This document shows, piece after piece, positions 14,995-63,428 of a stretch of 64,000 nt of DNA (the stretch's first letter is position 1; each line of letters starts with the position of its first letter). The position numbers and the translations under genes are program-made. This DNA comes from Pontivivens nitratireducens (lineage in GTDB: Bacteria > Pseudomonadota > Alphaproteobacteria > Rhodobacterales > Rhodobacteraceae). The stretch is taken from positions 62,001 to 126,000 of the forward strand of contig NZ_JACJUQ010000005.1 in assembly GCF_014235845.1 (NCBI RefSeq). Reading direction: 5' to 3'. The notes under the pieces are model-generated. The model saw only the letters and a list, made by a program, of their open reading frames with translations, was not told the origin of the DNA and ran no database searches.

Positions 14995-15752
14995 CCGTCA
15001 AGACAGACATACGCGACACCGGCGTGATGGTCATCACGCTGAACCAGCCCGAGCGCCGCAATCCGATCGGGCATGAAGTACGCCGCGCCATAGTGGCCGC
15101 GCTGTCGCAGGCCGAGGGTGACGATACCATTCGTGCCGTCGTGCTGACCGGTGCGGGTGGGCAATTTTCGGCCGGCGGGGATGTCCGCGACCAGCGTGAT
15201 CGCAGCATGGCCGAACAGCGCGAAAGATTTGCATGCGTCAAGGATATGGTCGAACGGATGGTTCGCTTCTCCAAGCCCTTGGTCTCAGCGGTCGAAGGGT
15301 GGGCTGCGGGGGGCGGCTTCTCGGTCGCAGTGGCGTGCCCTACGGTCGTTGCGGCCCGCGATGCGAAATTCGTGACCAGCTTTACCAAGGTGGGCCTGAT
15401 CCCCGACATGGGCCTGTTGGGAACGTTGCCTGCGCGGGTCGGCCCGGCGCGTGCCCGCCGGATCATCCTGAACAATCGCCCGATCGGGGCGGAGGACGCG
15501 TTGGCAATCGGCATTGTCGATGAAGTTGCGGAGGCCGGCGGCGCATTGGAACTTGCCTGTACCATTGCGGCGCAAGAAGCTGCCGGTGCGCCGCTGCCAC
15601 GGCAGTTCATCAACGATTGGTTCGCACGTGACGTTAGCGCCGCACTGGACTATGAGCATAGCTTGCAGCCGATTCTTCTAAACAGCGCCGACGCTGCCGA
15701 GGGTCGCGCGGCATTCCTGGAAAAACGCGCCCCGAACTACAAGGGGCGTTAG
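14991..15752 (+). CDS. Enoyl-CoA hydratase/isomerase (crotonase family)
   Basis: A 253-residue crotonase-fold enzyme. The oxyanion-hole segments FSAGGDVRDQ and EGWAAGGGFS are present. The active-site loop reads FTKVGLIPDMG, with an aspartate as in PaaG-type enoyl-CoA isomerases rather than the glutamate of typical hydratases, so double-bond isomerisation is at least as likely as hydration. It ends the divergent catabolic operon. Confidence 0.85.
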   Translation: MTVKTDIRDTGVMVITLNQPERRNPIGHEVRRAIVAALSQAEGDDTIRAVVLTGAGGQFSAGGDVRDQRDRSMAEQRERFACVKDMVERMVRFSKPLVSAVEGWAAGGGFSVAVACPTVVAARDAKFVTSFTKVGLIPDMGLLGTLPARVGPARARRIILNNRPIGAEDALAIGIVDEVAEAGGALELACTIAAQEAAGAPLPRQFINDWFARDVSAALDYEHSLQPILLNSADAAEGRAAFLEKRAPNYKGR

Positions 15753-15768
15753 GCGCCTGCGGGGGCAA

Positions 15769-47030: not shown

Positions 47031-48167
47031 ATGACCATCAGAACTCTCATCACGGCTGGCACGCTTGCAGCGTTGAGCGCGACCACCGCCCTTGCCGATG
47101 TGAAGGTCGGCATGATCACCACCCTTTCGGGCGGCGGTGCGGGGTTGGGCATCGATGTGCGGGACGGATTCATGCTGGCGGTTGAACAGTCGGGTCGGGA
47201 CGATATCGAAGTCATCATCGAGGACGACCAGCGCAAACCGGATGTTGCGGTGCAGCTGGCCGACCGGATGATCCAGTCCGAACAGGTCGATATCCTGACG
47301 GGCATCGTCTGGTCCAACCTCGCCATGGCGGTGGTGCCCTCGGCGGTGGCGCAGGGCAAGTTCTACCTGTCGCCCAATGCGGGGCCTTCGGCACTGGCCG
47401 GACGGGGCTGCGACCCGAATTATTTCAACATCGCTTGGCAGAACGACAACCTGCATGAGGCCGCCGGCGCATATGCCAACGATGCGGGATATACGAACAG
47501 CTTCATCCTGGCACCGAACTATCCTGCCGGTCAGGATGCGTTGATGGGGTACAAGCGCATGTATGATGGCGAACTGGGGGGCGAGATCTACACGCAGCTT
47601 GGTCAGACCGATTATGCGGCGGAAATCGCGCAGATCCGCGCCTCGGATGCGGACAGCGTGTTTTTCTTCCTGCCCGGCGGCATGGGGATTTCATTCCTGA
47701 AACAATATGCGGACAGCGGCGTCGATCTGCCGGTGGTCGGGCCCGCGTTCAGCTTTGACCAGGGCATATTGCAAGCGGTGGGCGCCGCGGCGCTGGGCGT
47801 GCACAACACCTCGCAATGGAGCAAGGACCTCGACAACCCGACCAATATCGCCTTTGTCGAAAGTTTTCAGGCGGAATTCGGCCGTCTGCCTTCGCTTTAT
47901 GCCAGTCAGGGATTCGACACGGCGAACCTGATGATTTCAGCGATGGAAGTCGCTGACGTGGACGATCAGGACGCGTTCCGCGCAGCACTTGAGGCCGCCG
48001 ATTTCGACAGCACGCGCGGCGATTTCGCGTTCGGACCGAACCACCATCCCGTGCAGGACATCCATGTGCGAAAGGTCGTGCAGGAGGGGGACGTTTTCAC
48101 CAATGTCATCGTCGCCACCGCCCTGACGGATCATGCGGATGCCTACGCGGCGGAATGCCAGTTCTGA
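47031..48167 (+). CDS. LIV-type ABC transporter substrate-binding protein (second system)
   Basis: A 378-residue type I periplasmic receptor with a Sec signal (1-22, ending ALA). VGMITTLSGGGAGLGIDVRDGFMLAVEQSG is the usual N-terminal lobe; later GCDPNYFNIAWQNDNLHEAAG resembles receptors for aromatic or amide compounds. It begins 78 bases after urtE; a TGACAA/TTGTCA repeat at 46970-46993 in that gap is weak. The ligand is unknown. Confidence 0.88.
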   Translation: MTIRTLITAGTLAALSATTALADVKVGMITTLSGGGAGLGIDVRDGFMLAVEQSGRDDIEVIIEDDQRKPDVAVQLADRMIQSEQVDILTGIVWSNLAMAVVPSAVAQGKFYLSPNAGPSALAGRGCDPNYFNIAWQNDNLHEAAGAYANDAGYTNSFILAPNYPAGQDALMGYKRMYDGELGGEIYTQLGQTDYAAEIAQIRASDADSVFFFLPGGMGISFLKQYADSGVDLPVVGPAFSFDQGILQAVGAAALGVHNTSQWSKDLDNPTNIAFVESFQAEFGRLPSLYASQGFDTANLMISAMEVADVDDQDAFRAALEAADFDSTRGDFAFGPNHHPVQDIHVRKVVQEGDVFTNVIVATALTDHADAYAAECQF

Positions 48168-48180
48168 TCTGATGCCGTAT

Positions 48181-48200
48181 CGGGCCTGATCGCAGGCCCG
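48181..48200 (+). other. Intercistronic hairpin after second LIV receptor
   Basis: CGGGCCTG-ATCG-CAGGCCCG: a perfect 8-bp stem with a tetraloop, 13 bases after the receptor stop, followed by TTC only. Confidence 0.65.
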
Positions 48201-48217
48201 TTCAACTGGAGTTCTGC

Positions 48218-49138
48218 ATGTCGATGATCCTGTTGATCGAACAGGTCCTGAATGGGCTTCAGTTCGGTGTGATGCTGTTCGTGATGGCGGCGGGCCTGAC
48301 ATTGGTGTTCGGGGTGATGGGGCTGATCAATCTGGCCCACGGATCGCTGTACATGATCGGCGCCTTCGCGGCGGCGACTGTGGCGGGGATGACGGGATCA
48401 TTCCTGCTGGCGTTGGCGGCCAGTCTGGCGGCGGCGGCCGCGGCGGGCGCGATTGTGGAGGTCGTGGTGATCCGCAGGCTCTATGCACGCGATCACCTCG
48501 ATCAGGTGCTGGCGACCTTCGCCTTGATTCTGATCTTTTCCGAAGGCACCCGCTGGCTGTTCGGATCGTTTCCGCTGTTTCTGGACGTGCCAGACTGGTT
48601 GCGCGGGCCGGTCAGTCTGCCCGGTGGTATCCTGTACCCGGCCTACAGGCTGGCCATTATCGGGGTCGGACTGGCCGTCGCGCTGGGATTGTGGGCGTTG
48701 ATCGCGCGCACGCGTCTGGGCATCCGCATCCGCGCGGGTGAGAGTGATCGGGAGATGATCGCCGCATTGGGGGTCGATATCTCGAAACTGTACACGCTGG
48801 TTTTCGCGCTGGGGGCCGCTTTGGCCGGATTGGCCGGGGCTCTGGTCGGGGCAATCCAGTCGGTGCAGGTCGGAATGGGGGAACCTGTGATGATCCTCGC
48901 CTTCGTCGTGATCGTGATCGGAGGCATCGGCTCGATCAAGGGGGCGCTGGTCGCATCATTGCTGGTCGGGGTCACGGATACGCTGGGAGGGGTGCTGCTG
49001 CCTGTTGCCTTCGCCCAGATCATGCAGCCGTCGAACGCCATGCTTGTCGGATCGGCTCTGGCCTCCATGCTGATCTACATCCTGATGGCGGTCGTGCTGG
49101 TGGTGCGACCCTCCGGCCTGTATGGGGCGCGGGCATGA
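48218..49138 (+). CDS. LIV-type ABC transporter permease (LivH-like, second system)
   Basis: A 306-residue inner-membrane subunit with the signature GVMGLINLAHGSLYMIGAF near 30-48 and the conserved loop GADIxK-like text (ALGVDISKLYTLVFALGAALAGLAGAL). GGAG ribosome site; ATGA overlap with the next permease. Confidence 0.9.
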   Translation: MSMILLIEQVLNGLQFGVMLFVMAAGLTLVFGVMGLINLAHGSLYMIGAFAAATVAGMTGSFLLALAASLAAAAAAGAIVEVVVIRRLYARDHLDQVLATFALILIFSEGTRWLFGSFPLFLDVPDWLRGPVSLPGGILYPAYRLAIIGVGLAVALGLWALIARTRLGIRIRAGESDREMIAALGVDISKLYTLVFALGAALAGLAGALVGAIQSVQVGMGEPVMILAFVVIVIGGIGSIKGALVASLLVGVTDTLGGVLLPVAFAQIMQPSNAMLVGSALASMLIYILMAVVLVVRPSGLYGARA

Positions 49139-50118
49139 TCGCGGAAAAACACCTCAACTGGCTGATCTCGGCAGTGCTGCTGGCCGTGCCGGTCGCGGCC
49201 TGGCTGGCGGGCGAGGTCTACACCGTGACGCTGGCGACGCGGGTGGCGGTGCTGGCCCTGGCCGGCGTCGGGCTGAACCTGGCGCTCGGCTCCGGCGGGC
49301 TGGTCAGCCTGGGCCATGCCGCATTCTTCGGTGCGGGGGGCTATGCGATGGGCATCCTGGCCAGTCACGCGCAAAGCTATCAACCGCTGATGGAGTGGCC
49401 CTTTCTGATCGAGGGCACGAAATCCATGCCAGTGATATGGCTGGTCGCGATTGCATCCGGCGCAATATCGGCGCTGGCGATCGGGGTGCTGAGCCTGCGC
49501 ACCTCGGGCGTGTACTTTATCATGATCACACTCGCCTTTGGTCAGATGTTCTATTATTTCGCGATCTCGTGGCCTGCCTATGGTGGTGAGGACGGGTTGA
49601 GCATCTATGTGCGTAACGGTTTTCCGGGGCTCGATACGCTGCAACCGATCCAGTTTTTTGCCTTGTGCTATGCCTTGCTGATCGTGGCGCTGGTGCTGTG
49701 CGCGCGGATCAACGCCTCACCCTTCGGTCTGGCGTTGAATGCGGTGCGGCAAAGCGCCCAGCGGGTGGAGACGGTGGGCCTGTCGCCCCTTCGCCTGCGC
49801 CTGACGGCGTTCGTCCTGTCCGGCGCGATCACCGCGTTGGCCGGGGCCCTGTTTGCTGACCTCAACCGGTTCGTCAGCCCGACGATGTTCAGCTGGCAAA
49901 CCAGTGGGGAGATCATGGTCTTTGTCATTCTGGGGGGAGTCGGGCGACTATATGGCCCGGTAATCGGCGCTGCGGTGTTCATCATGCTCGAACACTGGCT
50001 GGGGGGCGTCAGCGAGTATTGGCAACTGTTTCTGGGCGTACTGTTGCTGGGAGTCGTCCTGTTCGCACGGGGCGGATTGATCGGCGTGTTCGCCCGGCGG
50101 AGGGTCGGGCATGGCTGA
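49135..50118 (+). CDS. LIV-type ABC transporter permease (LivM-like, second system)
   Basis: A 327-residue inner-membrane subunit, signature GSGGLVSLGHAAFFGAGGYAMG near 51-72 and TSGVYFIMITLAFGQMFYYFA. It overlaps the ATPase gene by 8 bases. Confidence 0.9.
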   Translation: MIAEKHLNWLISAVLLAVPVAAWLAGEVYTVTLATRVAVLALAGVGLNLALGSGGLVSLGHAAFFGAGGYAMGILASHAQSYQPLMEWPFLIEGTKSMPVIWLVAIASGAISALAIGVLSLRTSGVYFIMITLAFGQMFYYFAISWPAYGGEDGLSIYVRNGFPGLDTLQPIQFFALCYALLIVALVLCARINASPFGLALNAVRQSAQRVETVGLSPLRLRLTAFVLSGAITALAGALFADLNRFVSPTMFSWQTSGEIMVFVILGGVGRLYGPVIGAAVFIMLEHWLGGVSEYWQLFLGVLLLGVVLFARGGLIGVFARRRVGHG

Positions 50119-50854
50119 TCCGGTTCTGGAGTTGAAGGACGTCTGCAAGAGTTTCGGTGCCCTGAAGGCGAGCGACCACGTTTCACTCGACCTGAGGGCC
50201 GGTGAAATCCATGCCTTGATCGGGCCGAACGGGGCCGGAAAATCGACCCTGATCGCCCAGATCGCGGGCAGTCTGGCACCGGACAGCGGGTCGATCCATT
50301 TCGACGGACAGGATGTGACCCATCTGGGACCGAGCGCACGGGCACGGCTGGGGCTGGCACGCTCGTTCCAGATCAGCGCCGTCGTGCCGGGATTTACCGT
50401 GGCGCAGAATATCCTGCTGGCGGTTCAGGCGCGTGCGGGACGCAGCTATACGATGTGGAGCAAGGCCGATGATATGGCCAGCGATCAGGTGGCGCGTTGG
50501 GCAGATATGGTGGGTCTGTCCGACAGGCTGGGTGCCGCCGCCTCCGATATTGCACATGGAGAGCGTCGGCGCCTTGAAATCGCGATGGCGCTGGCGATGC
50601 GGCCCAAGGCCTTCGTTCTGGACGAACCGATGGCCGGAATGGGGACGGAGGGTGTCAGCGCCATGACATCGCTCCTCGACCCGTTGCGGTTGCAGGCTCC
50701 TATTTTGCTGGTGGAACACGACATGCAGGCGGTCTTCGCGCTTGCCGATCGGGTCAGTGTATTGGTCTACGGCCGTATCATCGCCACCGGCACCGTCGCG
50801 CAAATTCGGCGCGATCCCTTGGTGCGGCAGGCCTATCTGGGGGATGAAGCGTGA
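50111..50854 (+). CDS. LIV-type ABC transporter ATPase (LivG-like, second system)
   Basis: A 247-residue ATPase: Walker A GPNGAGKST, LivG-type signature IAHGERRRLEIAMAL, Walker B FVLDEPMAGMG and VEHDMQAVF switch. Overlaps the LivF-like gene by 4 bases. Confidence 0.9.
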   Translation: MADPVLELKDVCKSFGALKASDHVSLDLRAGEIHALIGPNGAGKSTLIAQIAGSLAPDSGSIHFDGQDVTHLGPSARARLGLARSFQISAVVPGFTVAQNILLAVQARAGRSYTMWSKADDMASDQVARWADMVGLSDRLGAAASDIAHGERRRLEIAMALAMRPKAFVLDEPMAGMGTEGVSAMTSLLDPLRLQAPILLVEHDMQAVFALADRVSVLVYGRIIATGTVAQIRRDPLVRQAYLGDEA

Positions 50855-51540
50855 GCTTGCTCGAAGTGCGTGATCTCAAGGCGTCCTATGGCGGATCACC
50901 GGCCCTGTTCGGCGTTGACCTCAGCGTGGAGGAGGGCGAGGTGGTCGCTCTGATGGGCCGCAATGGCATGGGCAAGAGCACGACGATACGCTGTATCTGC
51001 CGGATGATGCCGTTAGATGTCGGAACGCTCAGCTTCGCTGGTCAGGATGTGCGATCGCTGCCCTCCCATGCGGCTGCTCGCCTCGGCATCGGTCTGGTGC
51101 CTGAAGGGCGGCGATGTTTCCCCAATCTGAGTGTTCGCGAAAACCTGATTGCCGCAGCCCGGCCCGGCCATTGGGACGCGGCACGGGTCGCCACACTGTT
51201 TCCGCGGCTGGCCGAACGCTCGGGTCAGAGCGCGGCCACCCTCTCGGGCGGGGAGCAGCAGATGCTGGCCATCGGGCGCGCGCTGATGACCAACCCGCGC
51301 ATGTTGATCCTGGACGAGGCGACGGAGGGGCTGGCCCCTCTGGTTCGGCAGGAGATTCGCGAGGTGATCGCAGGTTTGAGCGGACAGAGCGGCCTGTCTA
51401 TCCTCATCGTGGACAAGTCGCTTCGCGAACTGTCGCATATCGCCCGGCGCGTGGTTATATTGGAGCGGGGGCGCAGCGTCCTGAACGATGCGATATCCGC
51501 AGTGACCCCACAGGTGGCTGACCGATATCTGGGCGTATAG
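50851..51540 (+). CDS. LIV-type ABC transporter ATPase (LivF-like, second system; GTG start)
   Basis: A 229-residue ATPase: Walker A GRNGMGKST, signature LSGGEQQMLAIGRAL. Walker B ends DEATEG instead of the usual DEPTEG, and the switch position reads VDKS. Start is GTG overlapping the previous stop. Last gene of the second LIV-type system. Confidence 0.9.
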   Translation: MSLLEVRDLKASYGGSPALFGVDLSVEEGEVVALMGRNGMGKSTTIRCICRMMPLDVGTLSFAGQDVRSLPSHAAARLGIGLVPEGRRCFPNLSVRENLIAAARPGHWDAARVATLFPRLAERSGQSAATLSGGEQQMLAIGRALMTNPRMLILDEATEGLAPLVRQEIREVIAGLSGQSGLSILIVDKSLRELSHIARRVVILERGRSVLNDAISAVTPQVADRYLGV

Positions 51541-51934: not shown

Positions 51935-52654
51935 TTAGGAGGCGTCGATATCTCCCATGTCGTGGGCGTGCTGGATCAATCTGTCAGGTTCGAAAAAAGT
52001 AATGCAGCCCCGCCGTGTGCCGATAATGCCCATTTGGGCCAGGACGCTCAACTCACGGCTGACGGCCTCACGGTTTGCGCCGACCTGCGCGGCGATCTCG
52101 GCATGGGTTGGGGCGGGGCGCAGTTCGCCGCCCTCGACCAGAACGCTTTGTTCCAGTCCGGCTCGCACCAGAAACAAAGTCAGACGATCCGCCAGTTTCA
52201 GTGCCGTCAATTCGAAGCTGCGCTGCGTCAGATTTCGCACCTTCTCAACCATATCGCCCAGCAGGACCTGTGCCACACCCGGTTGATCCCGTATCAGGGC
52301 GCGCAAGGTCCGGCCGGGCAGGCGTGCCAGTTCCGCCGGGGTGCGGGCGAAGATGCTGGCAGACCGTTCGCCGCCTCCGATTGCGGCGATCTCTCCGAAA
52401 TAGGTGCCGCGCTGCATCTCGCCCAGGGCGACTTCACGACCGCGCCCGGAAATCAGGATGGCCGTCAGTTGACCGCTCAACACCAGATAGAAGTCATCGG
52501 ATTTGTCCAGGTGTTGCACCACCAGTTCACCACGCTCCGGTCGCACGATGTCGACGCGGTTCGCCAGGTCAGACAATGCATCGGCGTCGAGTGAGGCGAA
52601 TATATCGAACTCCGCCAGTGATGACGGCAGATCACAACGCTTTATCATGGTCAT
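51935..52654 (-). CDS. Crp/Fnr-family regulator with an intact cyclic-nucleotide pocket
   Basis: A 239-residue regulator: cNMP-binding beta-barrel at about 15-130 and a winged helix near 170-225 (HAEIAAQVGANREAVSRELSVL). The phosphate-binding cassette reads FGEIAAIGGGERSAS with Glu88, Arg97 and Ser98, the residues that hold cAMP in Crp. The cysteines needed for an Fnr iron-sulfur cluster are missing. Since the three-gene operon nearby encodes a cyclase, it is the likely receptor for that signal. An alternative start is 52648. Confidence 0.88.
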   Translation of the reverse strand: MTMIKRCDLPSSLAEFDIFASLDADALSDLANRVDIVRPERGELVVQHLDKSDDFYLVLSGQLTAILISGRGREVALGEMQRGTYFGEIAAIGGGERSASIFARTPAELARLPGRTLRALIRDQPGVAQVLLGDMVEKVRNLTQRSFELTALKLADRLTLFLVRAGLEQSVLVEGGELRPAPTHAEIAAQVGANREAVSRELSVLAQMGIIGTRRGCITFFEPDRLIQHAHDMGDIDAS

Positions 52655-52736
52655 CCCCTATGTCCCTTTGACAGACTGGTACTATTGCAGTGAACACGAT
52701 TATCTGCCCGCGACGCGGTTAGTTAGGACAAAGCTG
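52655..52736. promoter_or_regulatory. Divergent promoter region, Crp-type gene and FAD oxidoreductase
   Basis: An 82-base gap with a good -35 (TTGACA, 52668-52673) for the rightward gene but a weak -10 (TGAACA at 52691), which suggests an activator-dependent promoter. ACTG-N9-CAGT at 52675-52691 overlaps it. No clean TGTGA-N6-TCACA site is present. Confidence 0.4.
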
Positions 52737-54665
52737 ATGACACTAGCAAGTAAAACGAAGGTTTTGATCCTGGGGGGCGGGTGCGGTGGCGTTGCTGCGG
52801 CCTATACGCTTGGCGCGACGCCCGAACGGCGCGAGACCTTCGATGTCACGCTGTGTTCGCAAGGATGGCGGATCGGGGGCAAGGGGGCCAGCGGACGCAA
52901 TGCCGCCGATCACCAGCGGATAGAGGAACACGGCCTGCATCTGTTCCTCGGGTTTTACCGAACGGCCTTCACGATGCTGCGCGATGCCTATGCCCAATTG
53001 AACGGTGTGCAAGACGGGGTGTTCCCCTCGGTTGAGGAGGCGTTCACCCCCCAGCACCACGTTACGTTATGGGCGGCCCCTGGCGATGGCGGGGGGGCGG
53101 GGTGGAAGGATTACACCCTGATGGCCCCCCGATGGCCCGGCCTGCCGTGGGATGCGGACGAGGACGATTTGCGCCAAGCCCCCGACAGGCTGGCCGAACT
53201 GATGCGGATCGAGGCCGCGCATGTCGGCGCGGACCGTTTGCGCACCCCGCTCGACCCCGACCGACATGCCCATGCGAAGCCCGAGGAGCGTGAGAGTCTG
53301 TTCGCCTGGTTCCTGGACGAGTTGCACGACATGGATTGGTCGCTGGGCTGGCACGTGTTCAGGGACCTACTCGAAATCGGGGGGGCGGTGTTGCGGGGGT
53401 ATTTCGCGGATGTGTTGCCGCATGGCTGGAATGCCTGGCATCGAATCGACCATCTGGATTTTCGCGCCTGGCTGATGATGCACGGGGCCAATGCCTCCGC
53501 CGCGTGGTCCGAGACGATCCGCGTCATCTACGATCTGGCCTTTGCGTATCGGGGCGGGGACGGGGACGATCTCTCCGACGCGGATATCGCTGCGGGCGCA
53601 TGTCTCAAGCTGATCCTCGATCTGGTGGCGGGCTATCGTGGTGCGCCGATGTGGCGCATGAACGCCGGGATGGGCGACACGGTCTTTACCCCGCTGGTGA
53701 AGTGCATTGCACGGCAAGGCGGCAAGATCAGGCTGTTCCAACGGGTCAGGGAGATCGAATTCGACGGCGACCGGGTCGTGCGGGTGCGCATGTCGGTTCA
53801 GGCCGCGCTGGCCGGGCAGGGCTATGATCCGTTCGTTCGGGTCAACGGTCTGGATTGTTGGCCCAGTTCGCCGCTTTGGGATCAGCTCTCTGCTGACACG
53901 CCGCGTGTGAACTTCGAGGATGCGTGGACGCATGTTTCGATCGCGGAGCATGTGCTGGAGGTAGGGCGCGATTTCGATCACGTCATTCTGGCGATTCCCC
54001 CCGCCGCGGCCGCACCGTTGACCGACGGGCTGGCGCGGACCAACCCCGATTGGGCGCGCATGTTGGACACGGTCGGCAGCGCGTCGGTCGCGACGCATTC
54101 CGTTCAGCTATGGCTGGACCGAACCACGGTCCAGGCCGGTTGGGCCGAGAGTGTGGAGCCGGTGTCCGGCGCCTGTGCGCCGCCCCTGGGAACATGGGCC
54201 GACATGACACATCTGATTGCCCATGAAACATGGCCATCGGGGCAGGCGAAAAGCTGTCAGTATCTGGTCAGCGTCACGGAACTGCCGCCCGACCTGCCAC
54301 CGATCACGGTCGAGGCGCCACATGTGCAGATCGAGGCGAACACGGCGGGACAGACCTTTACCAACGTATGGTTGGACGCGAATGCCCATATCCTGTGGCC
54401 AGGGATCGCGACACCGGGCGCGTTCGACCGGCAGCGGATCGTCAGCACCTACGACCACGTCAATATCTCACCCAGCGAGCGTTACGTCCGCACCCCTCCC
54501 GGCAGTGTGGTGGACCGTTTGCCGCCCGATTGGGACGGCGTGCGAAACATGAGCCTGGCCGGGGACTGGACGATCACCTCGATCAATGGCGGCTCGGCGG
54601 AGGCCGCACTGGAAAGCGGCAAGACCGCAGCCGATGCGCTGGTCCGTGCCGCAGGGGTGGCGTGA
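52737..54665 (+). CDS. FAD-dependent oxidoreductase (amine-oxidase/desaturase fold), copy 1
   Basis: A 642-residue flavoprotein: N-terminal FAD dinucleotide motif GGGCGG (13-18), GWRIGGKGASGR (43-54), EEHGLHLFLGFY, and the C-terminal FAD segment MSLAGDWTITSINGGSAEAAL. It resembles phytoene-desaturase-like proteins in layout. It shares its order of motifs with the gene at 55678-57636 and is a paralogue. Start at 52737 after AGGACA; the longer frame from 52503 crosses the Crp-type gene. Its 3' end faces the decarboxylase-like gene 9 bases away. Confidence 0.82.
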   Translation: MTLASKTKVLILGGGCGGVAAAYTLGATPERRETFDVTLCSQGWRIGGKGASGRNAADHQRIEEHGLHLFLGFYRTAFTMLRDAYAQLNGVQDGVFPSVEEAFTPQHHVTLWAAPGDGGGAGWKDYTLMAPRWPGLPWDADEDDLRQAPDRLAELMRIEAAHVGADRLRTPLDPDRHAHAKPEERESLFAWFLDELHDMDWSLGWHVFRDLLEIGGAVLRGYFADVLPHGWNAWHRIDHLDFRAWLMMHGANASAAWSETIRVIYDLAFAYRGGDGDDLSDADIAAGACLKLILDLVAGYRGAPMWRMNAGMGDTVFTPLVKCIARQGGKIRLFQRVREIEFDGDRVVRVRMSVQAALAGQGYDPFVRVNGLDCWPSSPLWDQLSADTPRVNFEDAWTHVSIAEHVLEVGRDFDHVILAIPPAAAAPLTDGLARTNPDWARMLDTVGSASVATHSVQLWLDRTTVQAGWAESVEPVSGACAPPLGTWADMTHLIAHETWPSGQAKSCQYLVSVTELPPDLPPITVEAPHVQIEANTAGQTFTNVWLDANAHILWPGIATPGAFDRQRIVSTYDHVNISPSERYVRTPPGSVVDRLPPDWDGVRNMSLAGDWTITSINGGSAEAALESGKTAADALVRAAGVA

Positions 54666-54674
54666 CCAGACGCC

Positions 54675-55673
54675 TCAGCCCGGTGCCTGCCACAGCGTCT
54701 TTCCGTTGCGGGTGGTGAAATCGAAGTTCACCCAGAACGCGAAGCGCGCCTGCGTGGTCAGCAGATCGCCGTCCCGCGTACCGGACAAGCCCAGATCGCG
54801 GGCGATCTGGTGGCTCTCGCAATCGCGGATCGTACAGGCCCACTGACCCGGCATCAGTCCGCCGCGATGTACGGCGTCCAGATGTGCAGGACTTTCGGTG
54901 ATTGCCTGATAGCAGGCCTTGGTCCAGTCCTCCGCCGCGCGAAATTGCTTGAGGTTCACGACAGGCACGATGAAATCGAACGCGAGCTTGCCGATATCCC
55001 ACACGAAGGCCGCGCCCTCCACCATGGTTTCCAGCAGACCTTGCGGGTGGCGCATCTGGTCCATGATAACGCTGAGCATACCGCCGATGTCCTGAAAGTC
55101 ATCGCGCCAGGGGCCGTGCACATCGGTGCCGGTGAGGGTGATCAGCTCCGCATTCTCGACCGCGCGGGTGGTGTCGGCGAATGTCGGAAAGATGGTAGTG
55201 CGCGCGACGAACCTGTCACCGGGATCGGTGACGAGCTGAATATCGCCCAGCGTCTTGCGGTATCCCCAGATCTCGCGCCCGACGACCAGCCCGGTATCGA
55301 CGTTGATAAACAGATAGGGCACCCAGAAGGTCAGCCGGGGAAAGATTTGCCCCTCGCGATATTCCCACAAGGGGACCCAGAACATCGCCTCCCTGTCGCC
55401 CTGCACGCCGATGGTCTGTGACAGGGATGTCGCGGCGGCCACCTCCAGAAAGGTCAGAAGGACCGTGTCGCCAACCGTCTCGTATCGCAGTTCTGGGGCG
55501 CAGGCGGCATTGAGCTGACTGTCCACAAAGGCCTGAACGCTGCGCGAATCCGCGTCGAGCGCGAAAGCATACGAGGTTGTCCCCTCCAGCCGCAAGGGCT
55601 GTGGAAAGCAGATCTCGCCGTGCCCCAGACGGTCCACGTAATCCGGCATCTTGCTGGTATCGGTCATGTCCAT
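54675..55673 (-). CDS. Acetoacetate-decarboxylase-superfamily protein
   Basis: A 332-residue protein of the ADC fold (about 90 residues longer than classical ADC). The active-site region reads GREIWGYRKTLGDIQL: Lys140 lines up with the Schiff-base lysine, but the next residue is threonine where ADC has a second lysine that tunes its pKa, and the preceding proline is arginine. Decarboxylation, or an aldol/dehydratase reaction as in some ADC-like enzymes, is possible. It is the last gene of the cyclase operon, 4 bases after the oxidoreductase. Confidence 0.78.
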   Translation of the reverse strand: MDMTDTSKMPDYVDRLGHGEICFPQPLRLEGTTSYAFALDADSRSVQAFVDSQLNAACAPELRYETVGDTVLLTFLEVAAATSLSQTIGVQGDREAMFWVPLWEYREGQIFPRLTFWVPYLFINVDTGLVVGREIWGYRKTLGDIQLVTDPGDRFVARTTIFPTFADTTRAVENAELITLTGTDVHGPWRDDFQDIGGMLSVIMDQMRHPQGLLETMVEGAAFVWDIGKLAFDFIVPVVNLKQFRAAEDWTKACYQAITESPAHLDAVHRGGLMPGQWACTIRDCESHQIARDLGLSGTRDGDLLTTQARFAFWVNFDFTTRNGKTLWQAPG

Positions 55674-55677
55674 ATCC

Positions 55678-57636
55678 TCACAGGTAATCTTCGCCGATGA
55701 CGACGCGCGGTTGGCCGCTGATCGCGCGACTGGCCTGCATACCGCTCATCACGGCGGATTCGACGCAGGTGGTGTTCAGTCCCGTGCGGATATGACATCC
55801 GGCAAGGAACAGGTTATCGAAACCGCTGCCATCTGCGGGCAGACGGTATTGCACCTGTCCGGCCGCCGCCCCGACGCAGCATTCGGAGGGATCGATATTG
55901 GCGCGAACATAGACCTGTTCCGGCGACAGAGGTTCAGGCGGGCGGGCGCACCAGGCGGTGGTGCCGTAATCGTCGATCCATTGGGTAAATTGCGCGGTAA
56001 CGTCGGCGTTTGCCACGGCCTGCGCATCCGTATGTGCAGGCGCGCTATACGCGGTAGAGGCATAGGCGCCGCAGAAATAATGGATGGACCCGGCCCCGCC
56101 CTCGACCGGCAAAAGCTGGCTCATGTCGGACCAGATATCGAACCGCTCAGGCCCCGCGACGGTGGCGGGGCGATCGTCCCAGCCCAGTTCGCTGGTGGTC
56201 TGTGGCAGCCAGACCTGTGCTGCCAGCGTCGGGATCAGCCCGGTATTTTCGACCATATCCGCGAAGGGGCCGCGCTGTGCAATCAATTCCCGCGCCAGAC
56301 CGGGTTCGTCCGGGTTGAGCTGCTTGTACCCGCCCATTGCGATGCCGAGGATCACCTTGTCGAAATCCTGGCCCCTCTTCAGGATGACCTCCTCCGTCGG
56401 ATAGGGGGGGGACCAATGGTTTTCGAAATCGACACCGGCTTTGGCCATTGCCTCGCCATCCTCGATCTGCTCCCAATAGGGATGCGCGGGCCAAGTGGGC
56501 ACGCCGTCGATGACCTTGGTTGGCCGGTAGTCGCCCAAGGTCCGCGCCTGCCGTGCCAGAGTGATACGGGCGATGGAGTTTTCGGCGGCGTCCAGATGCA
56601 GGCCTGTCGTCTTGTGAAAGAAGTTCACCTTTACCCCCCGCGCGCGCAGGACGTCATATATCGGGGCGACGGCCACCTCCGCCATGCCGGCCTTGACCGT
56701 GAACATCACCGATTCCTTGTAGGTGGTGATGATCCGCAGGATTACCCGCAGCGCCGTGCCTGTGCCCACGGACGGGCGATTGTGGTCGCCCTCAAGATAC
56801 CAGAAACAACAATCGTAGATCGCCCTCACAGGTGATGTGGTCTCGACGATCTTCGGGTCGGCGCCATGATTCTTGAGCCACTGGCGAAACTCGATCTCGT
56901 TCAGGTCGTCCAGGCTCTTGCCGCAAATCAGCACGTCCCAGGTGATGCCCGCAGCGAAGGTCGCGCCCAGATGCAGAAGATCCCTGAACAGATCGCCCAG
57001 CGGCAGGCTGCGCTGTCTTCTCGGGCGGAAGGACTCCCGAACCTCACGCAGATGTACCAGCGCCTCGGTATCGGAGCCCTCGGGCGCCTCGATCTTTTGC
57101 GCGGCACAGCCCAGATCGACGTCCTCTCTGGCCACGGCGCTATGTGTCGGATCGGTGTCGTCCTCGAAGGTGGCATGCAGAAGTTGTTTGAGCAGGGAGG
57201 CCAGTTGACTGAGCATTCCACGGATCGACAGGTTCAATTCACCCGAGCCACGCTCATCGCTATTCGTCGGCCATTCGATATTGCAGAAATCCCAGGAGCC
57301 ATCGGACGATTGCGTCCATAACGGGGTGAAGTTCTGTGGCTCGAACGCGTCGAGACCCGTTTGAAACGGGCAGTTTTCCGGGCGGTCCCATTCGGCATAT
57401 ATCTCACGCAACATCGACCAGGCATTGTCGTAGCAGCCGAACCAGAAATGCAGGCCGTGTTCCAGAATGCGGTTGTGATCGTCGCGGCCCGTGGCACATT
57501 TTCCGCCGAGCCGCCAACCCATCTGCCAGATTTCCACATCGTATCGCCGCCGTAGTTCGGGTGTGGCGCTCAGATGCCATGCTGCGGTCAATGCGCCGAA
57601 TCCTCCCCCAAGGATCGCGATCTTCTCTTTCTCCAT
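55678..57636 (-). CDS. FAD-dependent oxidoreductase (amine-oxidase/desaturase fold), copy 2
   Basis: A 652-residue flavoprotein, paralogue of the gene at 52737-54665: GGGFGA (10-15), GWRLGGKCATGR (40-51), LEHGLHFWFGCY (58-69), and a C-terminal FLAGCHIRTGLNTTCVESAVMSG that binds FAD. Start at 57636, ten bases after the cyclase stop; the longer frame from 57717 runs inside the cyclase. Sandwiched between the cyclase and decarboxylase-like gene, so all three are co-expressed. Confidence 0.82.
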   Translation of the reverse strand: MEKEKIAILGGGFGALTAAWHLSATPELRRRYDVEIWQMGWRLGGKCATGRDDHNRILEHGLHFWFGCYDNAWSMLREIYAEWDRPENCPFQTGLDAFEPQNFTPLWTQSSDGSWDFCNIEWPTNSDERGSGELNLSIRGMLSQLASLLKQLLHATFEDDTDPTHSAVAREDVDLGCAAQKIEAPEGSDTEALVHLREVRESFRPRRQRSLPLGDLFRDLLHLGATFAAGITWDVLICGKSLDDLNEIEFRQWLKNHGADPKIVETTSPVRAIYDCCFWYLEGDHNRPSVGTGTALRVILRIITTYKESVMFTVKAGMAEVAVAPIYDVLRARGVKVNFFHKTTGLHLDAAENSIARITLARQARTLGDYRPTKVIDGVPTWPAHPYWEQIEDGEAMAKAGVDFENHWSPPYPTEEVILKRGQDFDKVILGIAMGGYKQLNPDEPGLARELIAQRGPFADMVENTGLIPTLAAQVWLPQTTSELGWDDRPATVAGPERFDIWSDMSQLLPVEGGAGSIHYFCGAYASTAYSAPAHTDAQAVANADVTAQFTQWIDDYGTTAWCARPPEPLSPEQVYVRANIDPSECCVGAAAGQVQYRLPADGSGFDNLFLAGCHIRTGLNTTCVESAVMSGMQASRAISGQPRVVIGEDYL

Positions 57637-57646
57637 GCGGATGCCC

Positions 57647-60600
57647 TCAGGGATCTTGCAGCCAGACCGGAATGGGCCGACCGACAGCCTCGGTAAAGTT
57701 CGTGAAGACCTCGGCATCGCTGACGAGGTGCATTTGTCGTGCCAATCTGGCAGCGTCGGCCAGCATTTCAGTGCGTTTCGATACGTTCGTCTGGTCGAAG
57801 GCGCTGTGGAACATGGCGGCTGGTTTCGCGACGGGCATCTTCAGCGCGAACCGGCGCAAGACCTTGCGCGCACGCGCGGCCGCTGCTGCGTCGTCCAGCA
57901 GGGTCGTGGCACAACACAGCCAACGCAATGCATTGCACAGATGCCACGCGCCGGGCGGGCTCTTCTCCGCTATATCCAGCGCAAGGTGGGCGCGCTGGCG
58001 GGCCAGCGCCGTCTCACCCATAAGGACATCGGCCAGCGCCAGCGTGCACAATGCAAATGTCTCGTCCGCCTTGTTGAGCTGTGGATGTGCGACCAGTCCC
58101 GCCAGCGCCTTGTGTGCCTCGATCGGGACGGGTTCTCCGCCGGACAGCGCGGCACCGATCCGGGCTGTCTTGACCCAGACACGGATCTGGGCGCTGACGC
58201 GGCTGTCCAGCCCGGATTCCAGTTCGCCCAATGCGGGGTCGTCGCTGCGCAATTTTCCCCGTGTTAGGCGCGAATGAATGTCTGTCGCGACGCTCTGCCG
58301 CCAGCGACCGCGCGCGCCCAGTTCACCGTACAGCCGGATTGCGTCGCGGGCCGCCGGATCGGCGCGAAGCCAGTCGCCCCGGCCTGAATACAGGACCAGC
58401 GCGACCAGTGACGTAAAGGCTCTGTCATGCGGATCGCCCCCGGCCAAGGCGGTGCGTTTGGCATATCCGGCATAGGTATCCGCGAGTTTCGGCAATCGGC
58501 TTGTCTCGAACCCGATGGATAGGGCGGTATAGCCCGCGACCATTTCGCGCGTCAGCCCGACCCGTTCCGCTATGTTGAGCGATTTCAGCGTGTGCAGCAG
58601 AACGTCACCCAATTCGCCTTCGAAATAGGCGATTTCGGCCAGATCCTTGTGTGCGCTCGCGGCCATTGCAGCATAGGGGATCGTTGCGGGCGTCGCGCGC
58701 CCTCTGACCCGGTGCAGCACCTGCCGGGCAAGCGCGGGAAAAAGTTGCAGCGTCTTGATCACCACGCTGTGCGATTGCGGGTGCCCCATCGCGGTCAGCG
58801 CCTCGGACAATCGGGCCTCGGCCATTCGCAATTCGACCGCCTCCAACGCGGCGGAGCCTTCGGTCATCAACAGCTCGATTCTGCGGCGCATCGGAAGGGT
58901 TATTCCGTTGCGCTGCGCGATCAGACGCGCGTGCGAGGCGTGGGCGATGGCCTCGTCATGGGCGAAAAGGGCGCTTGCATTCCGGGCAAGGCGTTCATGG
59001 CAGGCTAAGGCCTTCTGCGCCTGATCCGCCCCGGCCCAGTGACGGGCCGCATCGGCGAGGTCGTCCTGCCCGCACCGTTCGGCCAGATGCCGGTGCAGCC
59101 TGCGCCGCGCGGCGAAGGGGAGGGCGCTGTACGAAACCTCCCGCACCAGATCGTCGCGAAAGGCGAACTGGCCGGGCTCGACTTCCCGCAGAAACTCCCG
59201 CTGCAACAGCGAGGCAAGCGCGTCTTCGATAGGCGCAAGAGGCGGCGCGTCCGGCAGGGCGGCGATGTCAGGGGCGCTGAAACGCTGTCCCAACAGGCTG
59301 GCAATCGACAGGACCTGTCGTTCCACCGGGTTGCATGTGTCGAGCCGGGTCGCCGCCAGTTCGCGCAGCGTCGCGGGCGACATGCTGCGCAGTTCCGGGT
59401 CCGCAGGCTCCGCCGTAGGCAGTCGCAATGCGCCGCCCGTCATCCTCAGCCGCCCGCTTTCGCTCAGATCGCGAACGAGTTCCCTTAGGAACAGCGGGTT
59501 GCCGCCGCTGCGCCGAAACAGATCCCGCACGGTATCGGGTTCGCATGCAGGCGCGTTCATCAAGCGGCAAATTGCGCGATCGACGCCGTCCAGGTCGAGA
59601 GGTTCGATTGCGAAGCCCCCCTCGGACGGTGGAGCCGCCTCGTCGGTGCGGACCGCAATCACCACCCGCACCCCGTCACGTGCGACACGTTCCAGCATCG
59701 CGGCGGAACTTCGGTCGAGGCACTGCGCATCGTCCAGGGCGATCAGCAAAGGTGGCAGGTTGGCCAGATCATGCAGGATCAGCTGGCTCAGGGCGGATTC
59801 CAGAAGGGATTGTTGTGGCTCCCCGCTGGGGACGGGCGCTTGCGTCACGGTCGGTGGGGAGATCAGATCACGCAGCGGGACGAACTGTCGCAAGGCCGTG
59901 ATCTGGGCTGCCGTAAACTGTGGCGCATCGTGAAAGGATGACACCAGCTCCGCCGCGATCCGCGCGATGCCTTCATATGCCAGTTGTGCCCCGTCGGGAC
60001 GCAGGGCCGGACGAACGACACGCCAGCCGGTGGCCTGTGCGATGGCGCAAAGCCCGCGCATATGTTCCGATCGCCCGATCCCCCTGGGTCCGCTGAGGAC
60101 ATGAACCGGGTGCGGCAATCGCGGGTCCGTCAGCCAATGGCTCAACGGTGAGGTGAGCGTCAGATCGTTCGCGGGCGACATATCCCGGATCCGGGCAATG
60201 GCTACGGGATCGGACCAGCCCTTTACCGAGAGAGGCGGCAGCGGCTGGGTGTCGATTGCCACGCCCGCACGCTCCGCTGTTGCTGCATCGACCAGAGGCG
60301 CGTCCGTCGCGGCCTGCATCAAACGGGTGGCGAGGGAACTGGGCCATCCGATGGCGGAGACGGTTCGCGTGGTGCGCGTTCCATGACGGCTCAGGAACAT
60401 CCGGCCATCGGCCACACCCACCGGACATCCGAGCTTCGGATCCGCCATGATGGAGACAGCAGCCCGCATCGCGCGCAATTCGCGCCCCGATGGCCCAAGC
60501 GGTGGCAGCCCGAACACGATGTGGAGCACCGTGCCTTTCTCCTCGGCCATCATGTTGACGGGAACGCCGGCCCAGGGCTCGATATGGCGGAAAATCCGGC

Positions 60601-61294
60601 CGAGACGCTCGGCAACCTGATCGGCGCGGTATTCTTCGGCATGGGCACCTGCCGTCAGATCGCATGACAGAACCGTCAGATCGCGAAACGTCGATGTGCC
60701 GTCCTCACCGGTGATCCGGGTCCAGACGCGGGTCAGCGGTGTCCGATCATGTCGGGGCGCAACGCGGGTCTGGTCCTGTTCGCCAGCAGATGGGCGGCGC
60801 AATTCACTCAATATGGTCGCGCCGGGTGCTGCGCTGGAGTTCAGGCGTGCAGCAGTCGCCGCCGCAGGGCCCGTTGCCAGCCAGATCTCGTCCGTGCCGG
60901 CATGGGTGTAACGGTCGATACCGGCACGACCGGAGGCGACGCTGATGCGGCATCGTATCTGATCGGGCAATTCGCTGTGGATGATCCGTGCGGTGTCATG
61001 CGCGGTGACGTCCATTCCGGCGCCTGGCCAGACCGCCATGACGGCATCACCGGCGAATCCGGCGATCAATCCGCCCCTGGCTTCGACGGTGCGGATGATC
61101 GTGTCGAAGAATGTTTCCAGAACAGAGGACAGGATTTCCGCACCTTGCGGGCCCTGCTTCGACAGGTTCGCGGCCAAGCCGGAAAACCCGACAAGATCGG
61201 CCTGCAGGACGGTTGCAGCGTCCCACATGATGCTGAATGTTTCTACATCGTCATGCTTTTGTAGATCCGAACCGTCCATTGGTATCCACCGCAT
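57647..61294 (-). CDS. Soluble-adenylyl-cyclase-like protein: two cyclase domains, P-loop ATPase, helical tail
   Basis: A 1215-residue cytoplasmic protein. Domain 1 (about 27-165) is a class III nucleotide cyclase with both metal aspartates, Asp33 (ADLVGFS) and Asp83 (AGDAVMAVW). Domain 2 (about 205-370) is a second cyclase fold with Asp212 but EEKG (251-254) instead of the second metal site; Arg324 of the transition-state pair is kept while the asparagine is Ser320. A STAND-type ATPase follows with Walker A GPRGIGRS (lysine changed to Arg408) and Walker B LLIALDD (516-522), then TPR-like helices from about 730. AGGGGG ribosome site at 61294. The order matches human ADCY10. Confidence 0.85.
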   Translation of the reverse strand: MRWIPMDGSDLQKHDDVETFSIMWDAATVLQADLVGFSGLAANLSKQGPQGAEILSSVLETFFDTIIRTVEARGGLIAGFAGDAVMAVWPGAGMDVTAHDTARIIHSELPDQIRCRISVASGRAGIDRYTHAGTDEIWLATGPAAATAARLNSSAAPGATILSELRRPSAGEQDQTRVAPRHDRTPLTRVWTRITGEDGTSTFRDLTVLSCDLTAGAHAEEYRADQVAERLGRIFRHIEPWAGVPVNMMAEEKGTVLHIVFGLPPLGPSGRELRAMRAAVSIMADPKLGCPVGVADGRMFLSRHGTRTTRTVSAIGWPSSLATRLMQAATDAPLVDAATAERAGVAIDTQPLPPLSVKGWSDPVAIARIRDMSPANDLTLTSPLSHWLTDPRLPHPVHVLSGPRGIGRSEHMRGLCAIAQATGWRVVRPALRPDGAQLAYEGIARIAAELVSSFHDAPQFTAAQITALRQFVPLRDLISPPTVTQAPVPSGEPQQSLLESALSQLILHDLANLPPLLIALDDAQCLDRSSAAMLERVARDGVRVVIAVRTDEAAPPSEGGFAIEPLDLDGVDRAICRLMNAPACEPDTVRDLFRRSGGNPLFLRELVRDLSESGRLRMTGGALRLPTAEPADPELRSMSPATLRELAATRLDTCNPVERQVLSIASLLGQRFSAPDIAALPDAPPLAPIEDALASLLQREFLREVEPGQFAFRDDLVREVSYSALPFAARRRLHRHLAERCGQDDLADAARHWAGADQAQKALACHERLARNASALFAHDEAIAHASHARLIAQRNGITLPMRRRIELLMTEGSAALEAVELRMAEARLSEALTAMGHPQSHSVVIKTLQLFPALARQVLHRVRGRATPATIPYAAMAASAHKDLAEIAYFEGELGDVLLHTLKSLNIAERVGLTREMVAGYTALSIGFETSRLPKLADTYAGYAKRTALAGGDPHDRAFTSLVALVLYSGRGDWLRADPAARDAIRLYGELGARGRWRQSVATDIHSRLTRGKLRSDDPALGELESGLDSRVSAQIRVWVKTARIGAALSGGEPVPIEAHKALAGLVAHPQLNKADETFALCTLALADVLMGETALARQRAHLALDIAEKSPPGAWHLCNALRWLCCATTLLDDAAAAARARKVLRRFALKMPVAKPAAMFHSAFDQTNVSKRTEMLADAARLARQMHLVSDAEVFTNFTEAVGRPIPVWLQDP

Positions 61295-61403
61295 CTGCCC
61301 CCTGTGCGCGATTCACGTCCCTGACGTTCCGGTGCACCTCTCGACCGATAGCAGAAAAGCGCCGTTCATGTATGCAAAATGCGAACATCGTCTCTGGCGG
61401 GAA

Positions 61404-61415
61404 TGTCACGTGACA
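61404..61415. promoter_or_regulatory. Candidate operator between cyclase and cpdB genes
   Basis: A 12-base perfect palindrome, TGTCACGTGACA, in the 178-base divergent gap, 57 bases before the cpdB start and 109 before the cyclase start. Confidence 0.5.
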
Positions 61416-61472
61416 GTCGTGTAGCGGAGGTATTCAATCGGGCAACCAGTCACTTTCGCGAAAGGCATTCAC

Positions 61473-63428
61473 ATGACCGCAACATTCAACATCAGCCGGC
61501 GGACCCTTTTGGCCAGCGCAGGTGCGCTGGTGGTCCTGCATCCCTTTTCGGCCATGGCGCAGGGCCGTCAGGCGCATTTGCGCATCATGTCCACGACAGA
61601 TTTGCACGTGCATGTGTACCCTTACGACTATTACGCGGATCGTCAGGTGGATACGGTCGGGCTCGCCCGGACGGCCAGCCTGATCGAGGGCATTCGCGCC
61701 GAGGCGACGAACACCGTTCTGGTGGACAATGGCGATTTCCTGCAAGGCAATCCGATGGGCGACTACATGGCCTATGAGAAGGGCCTCTCCGACGGGGACG
61801 TGCATCCCGTCATCACGGCGATGAACACCCTGGGCTATGACGCCGCGACGCTGGGCAATCACGAGTTCAACTACGGGCTGGATTTCCTGATGAAGGCGGT
61901 TGCCGGCGCGCAATTCCCCATCGTGTCCGCCAATGTGGCGAAGGGTGAGCTGGGCGCGACCCCGCAGGCCGACGATCATCTGGTGCCGCCCTACACGATT
62001 GTGGAGCGTGCCGTGACCTTGGGCGACGGCACGACGGAAACCGTCAGGATCGGGCTGATCGGCCTGTTGCCACCGCAAATCATGAACTGGGATCGCCGCC
62101 ATCTGGAGGGCAAGGCCAACACCCGTGACATCCTGCAAGCTGCCCGCGCCTTCGTGCCTGAAATCCGCGAACAGGGGGCCGATCTGGTGGTCGCGTTGAG
62201 CCATTCGGGCATCTCGACCGAGGCGCATACGGACGGGATGGAAAACGCCTCGCTCTACGTGGCGGGAATCGACGGGATCGACGCGGTCGTGACCGGGCAC
62301 CATCACCTCGTCTTTCCGGGTGAGGATTATTCGGGCGAAGGCATCGGCCAGGACACCCTGATGGGCAAGCCTGCCGTGATGGCCGGTTTCTGGGGCAGCC
62401 ATATGGGGCTGATCGACCTGATGCTGGAGCATGAGGCCGGTGAATGGCGGGTCGTGAACTCCACCACCGAGGCGCGGCCGATCTATTCCCGGGTGGAGCG
62501 TGAGGTCGAACCGCTGGTCGAAAGTTTCGAGCCGGTGCTCGCCGCCACCGCGCAGGAGCATGAGGAGACCCTTGCCTATATCCGGCGGGCCGTTGGGGAA
62601 ACGGCGGCACCGCTGCATTCCTATTTCGCGCTGGTCGCGGACGATCCCTCCGTTCAGATCGTCAGCCAGGCTCAGACCTGGTATATCGAGCAGATGATGA
62701 AGGGAACGGAGTGGGAGGGCCTGCCGATCCTGTCCGCCGCCGCACCGTTCAAGGCGGGCGGCCGTGGAGGGCCGGATTATTACACCGATGTGCCGGTCGG
62801 CCCTGTCGCGATCAAGAACGTCTCGGATCTGTATCTGTACCCCAACACCGCCCGTGCCGTTCTGATCAACGGGGCAACGGTCAAGGAGTGGTTGGAGCGT
62901 TCCGCCGCGATGTTCAATCAGGTCGCGCCGGGCGCGCAGGACGCCACGCTGATCAACCCCGACATGCCGTCCTATAACTTCGACGTCATGGACGGGGTCG
63001 AGTATCAGATCGATCTCAGCCAGCCTGCGAAATATGACCGTGACGGCGCAATCGTGAACCCGGACGCCAACCGTATCGTGAATCTGACCTATCAGGGCGC
63101 GCCGATTGACCCGGCACAGAAGTTTGTTGTGGCAACGAATAACTACCGCGCGGGCGGCGGCGGCAATTTCCCCGGGGCGGACGGTTCGACGACGATCTTC
63201 GTCGGGCCGGACACCAACCGCGATGTGATCGTGCGCTATATCGTCGATCAGGGGACCATTGACCCCAAGGCTGACGCGAACTGGACCTTCGCCCCCATGC
63301 CGGACACCACCGTTCTGTTCGACACAGGCCCCGCGGGGGCGGAGCATATGGACTCCGTGACCGGTGTGAACATCGAAGCGGCCGGAGAGGGCGACGACGG
63401 CTTCGCGCGCTATCGCATCACGCTGTAA
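61473..63428 (+). CDS. cpdB: 2',3'-cyclic-nucleotide 2'-phosphodiesterase/3'-nucleotidase
   Basis: A 651-residue periplasmic enzyme with a Tat-type leader (ISRRTLLAS, 7-15, ending AMAQ at 30). The metallophosphoesterase domain has TTDLHVHV (Asp43, His45), DNGD (Asp85, Asp88), LGNHEFNYG (129-135), SHSGI and GHHH. The C-terminal nucleotidase domain binds the base. It scavenges phosphate and nucleosides from RNA breakdown products. It diverges from the cyclase gene but is in another compartment. Confidence 0.88.

Follow-up and report, generated by a model that had tools for sequence, protein, structure and literature searches.

Five linked genes in Pontivivens nitratireducens: a recurrent module of FAD oxidoreductases, an acetoacetate-decarboxylase-like protein, a cyclase-like protein and a Crp-type regulator

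We describe a recurrent five-gene module in a 64,000-nucleotide stretch of Pontivivens nitratireducens DNA (contig NZ_JACJUQ010000005.1, positions 62,001 to 126,000; this whole stretch is called the window below). Positions 51935-61294 of the window encode a Crp-type transcription factor, two flavin adenine dinucleotide (FAD) oxidoreductases (OxA and OxB, together the Ox family), an acetoacetate-decarboxylase (ADC)-like protein, and a protein resembling soluble adenylyl cyclase (sAC). The module is real and recurrent, as shown by its gene content and order, its recurrence in other genomes, fusions of the two enzyme types in both orders, a conserved active-site lysine, and the homology of each of its parts. 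We favor the reading that it is a pathway-dedicated cyclic-nucleotide control module, in which an enzyme half, most likely acting on an isoprenoid substrate, is joined to a control half made of cyclase and Crp; we give this reading about an even chance of being right. A preliminary description of the window had placed five genes here, and the open reading frame (ORF) list bears out all five frames and their strands. The features are as follows:

51935-52654, minus strand: Crp/Fnr-type transcription factor (Pfam; alignment to Clr, 7pza)
52655-52736, no strand: divergent intergenic stretch of 82 bases between Crp and OxA, a candidate control region (inverted-repeat search)
52737-54665, plus strand: OxA, FAD oxidoreductase of the HpnE/carotene-desaturase-like superfamily, convergent with the ADC-like gene (Pfam/NCBIfam; genus orthologues; tree)
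54675-55673, minus strand: ADC-like protein with Lys140 at the Schiff-base position (Pfam just below cut-off; profile; alignment)
55678-57636, minus strand: OxB, FAD oxidoreductase; in many Rhodobacterales its homologues carry a fused ADC domain (Pfam; tree)
57647-61294, minus strand: sAC-like protein of 1215 aa, with C1 and C2 at ~24-370, an AAA_16-type ATPase at ~396-540 and a long C-terminal part (profile; Pfam/NCBIfam)
61295-61472, no strand: divergent stretch between the cyclase gene and cpdB, holding one perfect 12-base palindrome (palindrome search)

OxA, whose start was taken at the ATG at 52737, diverges from the Crp gene and faces the ADC-like gene. For OxB we used the conserved ATG at 57636 (MEKEK); the listed ORF opens earlier, at 57717. 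With this start, 10 bases separate the cyclase stop from OxB and 4 bases separate OxB from the ADC-like gene, which confirms the tight operon and the spacings of the preliminary description. The G+C content is 63.4% for the module vs 62.6% for the window, and composition does not single the module out.

The genus is Pontivivens, formerly Monaibacterium (e.g. Monaibacterium marinum, L001). The four genomes drawn from the genus all carry the five genes with order and orientation unchanged. "Self-contained", the term first applied to the module, is fair within the genus. The flanks, a LIV-type transporter and cpdB, are shared only with the nearest genus genome (G003) within the 20 kb compared, and the conserved unit thus ends at the Crp and cyclase genes. 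More widely, the Ox family (profile A1) occurs in at least 5 of 398 genomes of the phylum, at least 3 of 321 of the class of G492, at least 3 of 385 of its own class and at least 25 of 390 of its own order. The genome draws partly overlap, and the counts are lower bounds because only 2 or 3 candidates were scored per genome. By tblastn, Ox was also found on 11 records of a plasmid collection. We compared 39 Ox loci: four from the genus; one each from G371, G386, G395, G492, G577, G711, G873 and G965; 23 further Rhodobacterales loci; and those of Azospirillum, Qingshengfaniella, Catenovulum and Rufibacter. The Azospirillum locus represents 8 plasmid records, 2 of them examined; L001 and G003 gave the same matches and are counted once; and G115, with a weak ADC match only, was left out. 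The loci usually span ~20-26 kb (4.7 kb in L036, 5.0 kb in L037), and some of their genes were predicted by simple ORF scripts, not taken from annotation.

Overall, an ADC-like gene or fused domain is present in 33 of the 39 loci, a class III-type cyclase lies nearby in 29, and cyclase, Crp and ADC occur together in 22. This recurrence supports the proposal that signal maker, receptor and enzymes form one unit. Two Ox genes were found at 6 loci, so the twin oxidoreductases stressed in the preliminary description are not typical of the set, and the second Ox is a side feature. A test set beforehand asked whether the cyclase or Crp gene is routinely apart from the oxidoreductases. It is not: among the 25 genomes of the order that contain Ox, a class III-type cyclase lies nearby in 23 and a Crp gene in 18. 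The corresponding counts for the 23 further Rhodobacterales loci are 21 and 16, and all 21 cyclases score above the PF00211 and AAA_16 cut-offs. Twelve whole genomes (~47 Mb) contained 25 PF00211 matches, 13 of them in G965; at this density of ~0.5 per Mb, the chance of finding one within a ~14 kb neighborhood is <1%. G371 and the Qingshengfaniella and Rufibacter records have no PF00211 match other than the module cyclase. The cyclase architectures beside Ox vary, from C1-C2 (genus, G711) to a single domain, often with a zinc ribbon, and a form with a SAM domain (L089). On the Rufibacter plasmid (Bacteroidota; L015, 6382-11502, minus strand), a 1706-aa protein that diverges from Ox resembles the kinase-AAA-GAF proteins of G492 and ends in a class III cyclase domain.

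OxA matches Pfam PF01593 (3.3e-14). The oxidoreductase facing the operon had been called a paralogue of the one within it, and identities of 32% and 47% in two tblastn pieces agree with this. Azospirillum and Monaibacterium are present in both the OxA and the OxB clade of the tree, each with 100/99 support, which indicates that the two are old paralogues. The nearest named families are HpnE and the plant-type carotene desaturases (PDS/ZDS), which share an FAD-binding signature with Ox and give its best named matches. All these matches, however, are far below the cut-offs; for HpnE (TIGR03467), OxA scores 62.4 bits and OxB 54.5 bits vs a curated cut-off of 283.05. Ox also differs from these families in its length (~630-765 aa) and in being fused to, or lying beside, an ADC-like domain at the 33 loci counted above.

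The ADC-like protein carries the GRE-x-W-G-x-x-K-type motif of acetoacetate decarboxylase, including the lysine that forms a Schiff base in that enzyme. Unlike acetoacetate decarboxylase itself, the ADC-like proteins are divergent. The window protein scores just under the PF06314 cut-off (28.5 vs 29.8 bits), and its profile matches 3bgt, 5upb and 3c8w at the level of the motif only (E 0.17-0.37), with Lys140 aligned to the 3bgt motif. The cut-off is passed by the Azospirillum (41.3 bits) and Catenovulum (35.2 bits) proteins and by the fused domains of G371 (35.6 bits) and Qingshengfaniella (34.5 bits). All 25 ADC domains in the alignment, which did not include those of G386 and L089, have the Schiff-base lysine. 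The natural substrate is unlikely to be acetoacetate. We also used a leave-out ADC profile that excludes the G577 and G711 proteins, both of which an earlier ADC profile had included. It gave 202.9 bits for G577 and 118.9 bits for G711, and no match to two unrelated window proteins; Pfam gave no match to the G711 protein. The weakest assignments with this profile are those of G386 (48.0 and 33.5 bits), L089 (58.9 bits) and L085 (95.0 bits). The gene after Ox in Rufibacter, at first aligned as an ADC, was dropped and had no match to the leave-out ADC profile. Structure prediction was of low confidence, with a mean predicted local distance difference test score of 40.0 for OxB (4 rows) and 28.2 for the ADC-like protein (2 rows).

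The two enzyme types are joined in both orders. Among the 25 genomes of the order with Ox, its open frame is 975-1064 aa long in 21 and 715-772 aa in the remainder, and tblastn found the extra C-terminal domain of the long frames in 20 further loci, beyond Qingshengfaniella and G371. The opposite order is seen in G577, where a free-type ADC precedes Ox in a single open frame cut by the contig end. Because they are fused in both orders, Ox and ADC probably act in succession, for which the fusions are good evidence.

The cyclase-like protein aligns with sAC over both catalytic domains but is divergent, which is how the original label of a soluble-adenylyl-cyclase-like protein should be read. Pfam Guanylate_cyc gave no match in the genome of the window (E<=0.001) or in the four genomes of the genus (E<=0.01). 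Homology to human sAC becomes clear only with a profile, built from four relatives of which three belong to the genus, and it extends over both C1 and C2 (4clf; 1.1e-31; 58.0 and 53.4 bits). Like sAC (ADCY10) and the bacterial class III cyclase-AAA-TPR proteins (TIGR03903), the protein combines C1 and C2 in a single chain, with an AAA-type ATPase after them and a long tail at the end. The metal-binding Asp33 and Asp83, invariant in the four-relative profile, align to the sAC positions, and Lys253 and Arg324 are kept. Unlike sAC, it sits with FAD and ADC-like enzymes, has Ser320 at the Asn412 position, and has Gly79 at Lys95, a residue with a role in bicarbonate binding; Thr405 corresponds to Ser313. 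Thus the Arg of the transition-state Asn and Arg of sAC-type class III cyclases is present in the window and the Asn is not, and the related C2 domain of G711 keeps both. AAA_16 scores 29.7 bits in the window protein, just below the cut-off of 32.6, and 42.3 bits, above it, in the G002 orthologue. NCBIfam TIGR03903 (TOMM_kin_cyc) matches residues 400-789 with 87.9 bits vs a cut-off of 705.75. Judging from relatives only, the C-terminal part may be TPR-like; none of the TPR models matched the window protein. The G002 cyclase gene reads in two frames (L017, ~13691-13744), which may be a frameshift, a sequencing error or a real split.

The catalytic residues also vary among the other loci. Asn is retained in three sets of loci that differ at the Lys position: Gln stands there in G371, its relatives L084, L087 and L088, and in L086; Ala in L089 and L090; and the usual Lys, together with Arg, in L080, L081 and L091. 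With active-site residues altered in this way, activity or product may differ from those of ordinary cyclases, and the product could be cyclic AMP (cAMP), cyclic GMP (cGMP), something else, or nothing.

Both domains of the Crp-type protein score above cut-off (PF00027, 63.1 bits, E=2.4e-17; HTH_Crp_2, PF13545, 40.8 bits, 2.2e-10). A comparable pairing of class III cyclases with a Crp-type receptor, Clr, is described for Sinorhizobium meliloti (PMC10127613, PMC10463352, PMC4222275). The window is like this system in combining the two and in conserving the nucleotide pocket: Gly87, Glu88, Arg97 and Ser98 correspond to Clr G85, E86, R95 and S96 in the alignment to 7pza. Thr140 and Thr141 of Clr form the adenine-contacting pair, with base contacts from the C-helix (PMC10127613). 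The window protein has Leu142 and Thr143 there, and so departs from the C-helix base contact of nucleotide-dependent Crp/CAP proteins. The cAMP-contact residues had been described as intact, which holds for Glu88, Arg97 and Ser98 but not for the base-contact pair. Also unlike the S. meliloti system, the cyclase and Crp genes of the window share their locus with two enzyme types. The Leu-Thr pair is present in the three other genus Crp proteins (residue alignment). Among 19 Crp proteins compared, it occurs in 14 others outside the G371 group, whose 4 members have Ala-Ser. With both the catalytic and the base-contact residues altered, the nucleotide need not be cAMP.

We also looked for candidate Crp sites. 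No inverted repeat was found in the window at 52655-52736. Dyads were also counted in the sequences preceding 14 Ox-ADC genes, all from related loci; the best exact dyad was shared by 3 of the 14, and 30 simple shuffles reached <=2. The perfect 12-base palindrome TGTCACGTGACA at 61404-61415 was rejected as a conserved site; the G003 copy is not intact, and the frequency of the pattern with 2 mismatches allowed is at chance level.

Ten loci have no class III cyclase: those of Azospirillum, G492, G873, G965, G395, L092, G386, Catenovulum, G577 and L085. Other signalling parts stand beside Ox at several of them, namely a kinase-AAA_16-GAF-histidine kinase in Azospirillum and G492, a PAS histidine kinase in G873, a free cyclic-nucleotide (cNMP)-binding protein in G965, and TPR regulators in G395 and L092. 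In G386, a protein with a TIR domain followed by TPR repeats (L026, 16944-18902, minus strand) lies ~5 kb from Ox and shares a blastp cluster with the TPR regulators of G395 and L092. At L080, an ABC transporter that ends in a C-terminal cNMP-binding domain (14832-17987; PF00027, 1.1e-17) directly follows the cyclase, where other loci have Crp, which suggests that the nucleotide receptor may be kept while the output changes. The free cNMP-binding protein of G965 may likewise be a receptor of another form at a locus that lacks Crp.

Hints about the substrate come from neighbors in other genomes. Ox has a polyprenyl synthase gene as a neighbor in G386, L085 and L089. An RPE65-family (carotenoid-oxygenase) gene follows Ox in G711 (7.9e-125); RPE65 was found in only 4 of the 16 genomes or records searched, and beside the module only in G711. 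Azospirillum has FadL between its two Ox genes; FadL proteins also carry fatty acids and aromatic hydrocarbons. Three loci (G965, L080 and L085) share a family of ABC transporters. The initial guess of a terpenoid or carotenoid thus gains indirect support from polyprenyl synthase, RPE65-family and FadL neighbors elsewhere but not from the window genome, which has no carotenoid-oxygenase match and one SQS_PSY match, on another contig; with RPE65 beside the module only in G711, an isoprenoid substrate is a lead, not a result. In a second cluster type (L026, 9410-16984 of G386; L085; L089), Ox occurs with a small hypothetical gene, polyprenyl synthase and ADC-like genes, the latter being two in G386 and very long frames with several matches in L085 and L089.

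In the scheme that we propose, the HpnE/desaturase-like FAD enzyme would oxidize, desaturate or isomerize a long hydrophobic substrate, most likely an isoprenoid. The ADC-like enzyme would then act on a carbonyl of this substrate through a Schiff base on Lys140, in a decarboxylation or an aldol/retro-aldol-type step. The cyclase-AAA-TPR protein would be a STAND-type sensor. It would share the ATPase and TPR-like sensor logic of MalT-type STAND regulators, weak matches to TPR_MalT being found below cut-off in L089 and L090; unlike in MalT, its output would be a cyclase domain, hence a cyclic nucleotide, instead of DNA binding. The neighboring Crp-type protein would read the nucleotide and set the expression of the gene set. 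The order of the reaction steps, the substrate class, the sensing of a ligand, the production of a nucleotide and the action of Crp on the locus are what we infer here. A bolder version, which we consider distinctly unlikely, is a private channel: the non-canonical cyclase and the Leu-Thr Crp would communicate through a nucleotide kept apart from ordinary cAMP and so control an isoprenoid pathway, as yet undescribed, with the FAD-enzyme/ADC unit at its core. No description of the gene set was found in the literature searched, which left preprints and most subscription papers outside its coverage. The well-known bacterial cyclic-nucleotide circuits are mostly global. If the scheme is true, a cyclase, a receptor and a two-enzyme pathway travelling together would offer a compact case for finding what bacterial cyclase-AAA-TPR proteins sense, and the set would open a pathway for which our search found no description; the altered residues make nucleotide specificity directly testable.

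Several observations weigh against the control-module reading, and we consider them together with the alternatives. Where sAC has Asn412, the window protein has Ser320; G003 likewise has Ser, and G001 and G002 have Ala. The same two pairs differ at the Walker A lysine, which is replaced by Arg in the window and G003 and retained in G001 and G002. In the cyclases of Qingshengfaniella and of the most similar Crp-linked loci (L070-L079, L082, L083), Glu takes the place of the usual Lys, as is typical of guanylyl cyclases, and Val or Thr that of Asn. The pocket Glu is kept in 15 of the 19 Crp proteins and is Asp in 4, all of the G371 group, and stretch alignments, an inverted-repeat search and the dyad count gave no convincing shared Crp-like palindrome upstream of the genes. 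The altered cyclase and Walker A residues, together with Leu142 of Crp and the failure of the Pfam cyclase model to recognize the genus proteins, would suit a STAND protein, scaffold or sensor, whose cyclase has decayed, next to a Crp that works without a nucleotide or with a different ligand, with the enzymes still forming a real pathway. We hold this unlikely: Asp33, Asp83, Lys253 and Arg324 are kept, as are the Gly, Glu, Arg and Ser of the window Crp; the C2 domain of G711 retains Asn and Arg, and three loci (L080, L081, L091) retain Lys, Asn and Arg. As for the substrate, the window genome has no match to the carotenoid oxygenase RPE65, and its single SQS_PSY match (98 bits, above cut-off) is on another contig. 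The substrate might instead be a non-isoprenoid lipid, such as a fatty or polyketide chain, with the HpnE-like label reflecting the FAD fold only. The low scores of Ox against HpnE and the carotene desaturases and the wider range of FadL fit such a lipid, but polyprenyl synthase at three loci and an RPE65-family gene at one argue for an isoprenoid; we consider this alternative somewhat unlikely.

The control-module reading is also weakened by gaps in the linkage. ADC is missing from 6 of the 39 loci, and the profile of free ADC proteins gives the fused domains scores of just 2.1 and 7.0 bits, which marks them as a different branch. In the order of G711, Ox was found in 1 of 4 genomes. In Catenovulum, no class III cyclase or STAND protein lies close by (an annotated diguanylate cyclase lies ~2 kb off and a kinase/response-regulator pair further away), and no signalling gene was recognized at the L085 locus. 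Furthermore, many of the 25 Rhodobacterales Ox genomes are related and all come from one family, so these loci are not independent. Shared ancestry of one region, with neighbors that have no functional link, would account for that single family and for a phage tail collar gene that is likewise common to 10 loci. We consider it extremely unlikely, since the link recurs with different cyclase architectures, in another phylum (Rufibacter), and with the two enzyme types fused in either order. A conflict or defence island, with a Pycsar-like cyclase and a STAND ATPase, and with enzymes making a toxic or signalling molecule, would match the rare and patchy occurrence of Ox (the lower bounds given above) and its 11 plasmid-collection records, the TIR-TPR protein of G386, and the PADLOC matches, namely PycC to the window cyclase (6.8e-12) and TIR-effector models to the cNMP domain of Crp. 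The window set resembles Pycsar PycC in its class III cyclase domain, with a weak profile match, but it has a very different domain layout and no Pycsar effector, the TIR-effector models having hit only the cNMP domain of Crp. Because the window holds no effector, we rejected a Pycsar reading of it. The wider defence interpretation also appears very unlikely: the window module has no TIR or membrane effector, its three enzyme genes have no PADLOC match at E<=0.01, and the same five genes stand in the four genus genomes drawn.

Beyond the cyclase gene, and divergent from it, lies a cpdB-type 2',3'-cyclic-nucleotide phosphodiesterase/3'-nucleotidase gene (61473-63428, plus strand; PRK09420, 864 bits). 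It is present in G003 and has no match in the G001 and G002 loci, so it is probably outside the module. To the left of Crp are LIV-type ABC transporter genes (47031-51540, plus strand), named by eye from sequence as a substrate-binding protein, two permeases and two ATPases; among the genus loci they are common only to the window and G003. At 10 Rhodobacterales loci, a phage tail collar domain-like gene (PF07484 in L070, 13042-13737) lies near Ox-ADC.

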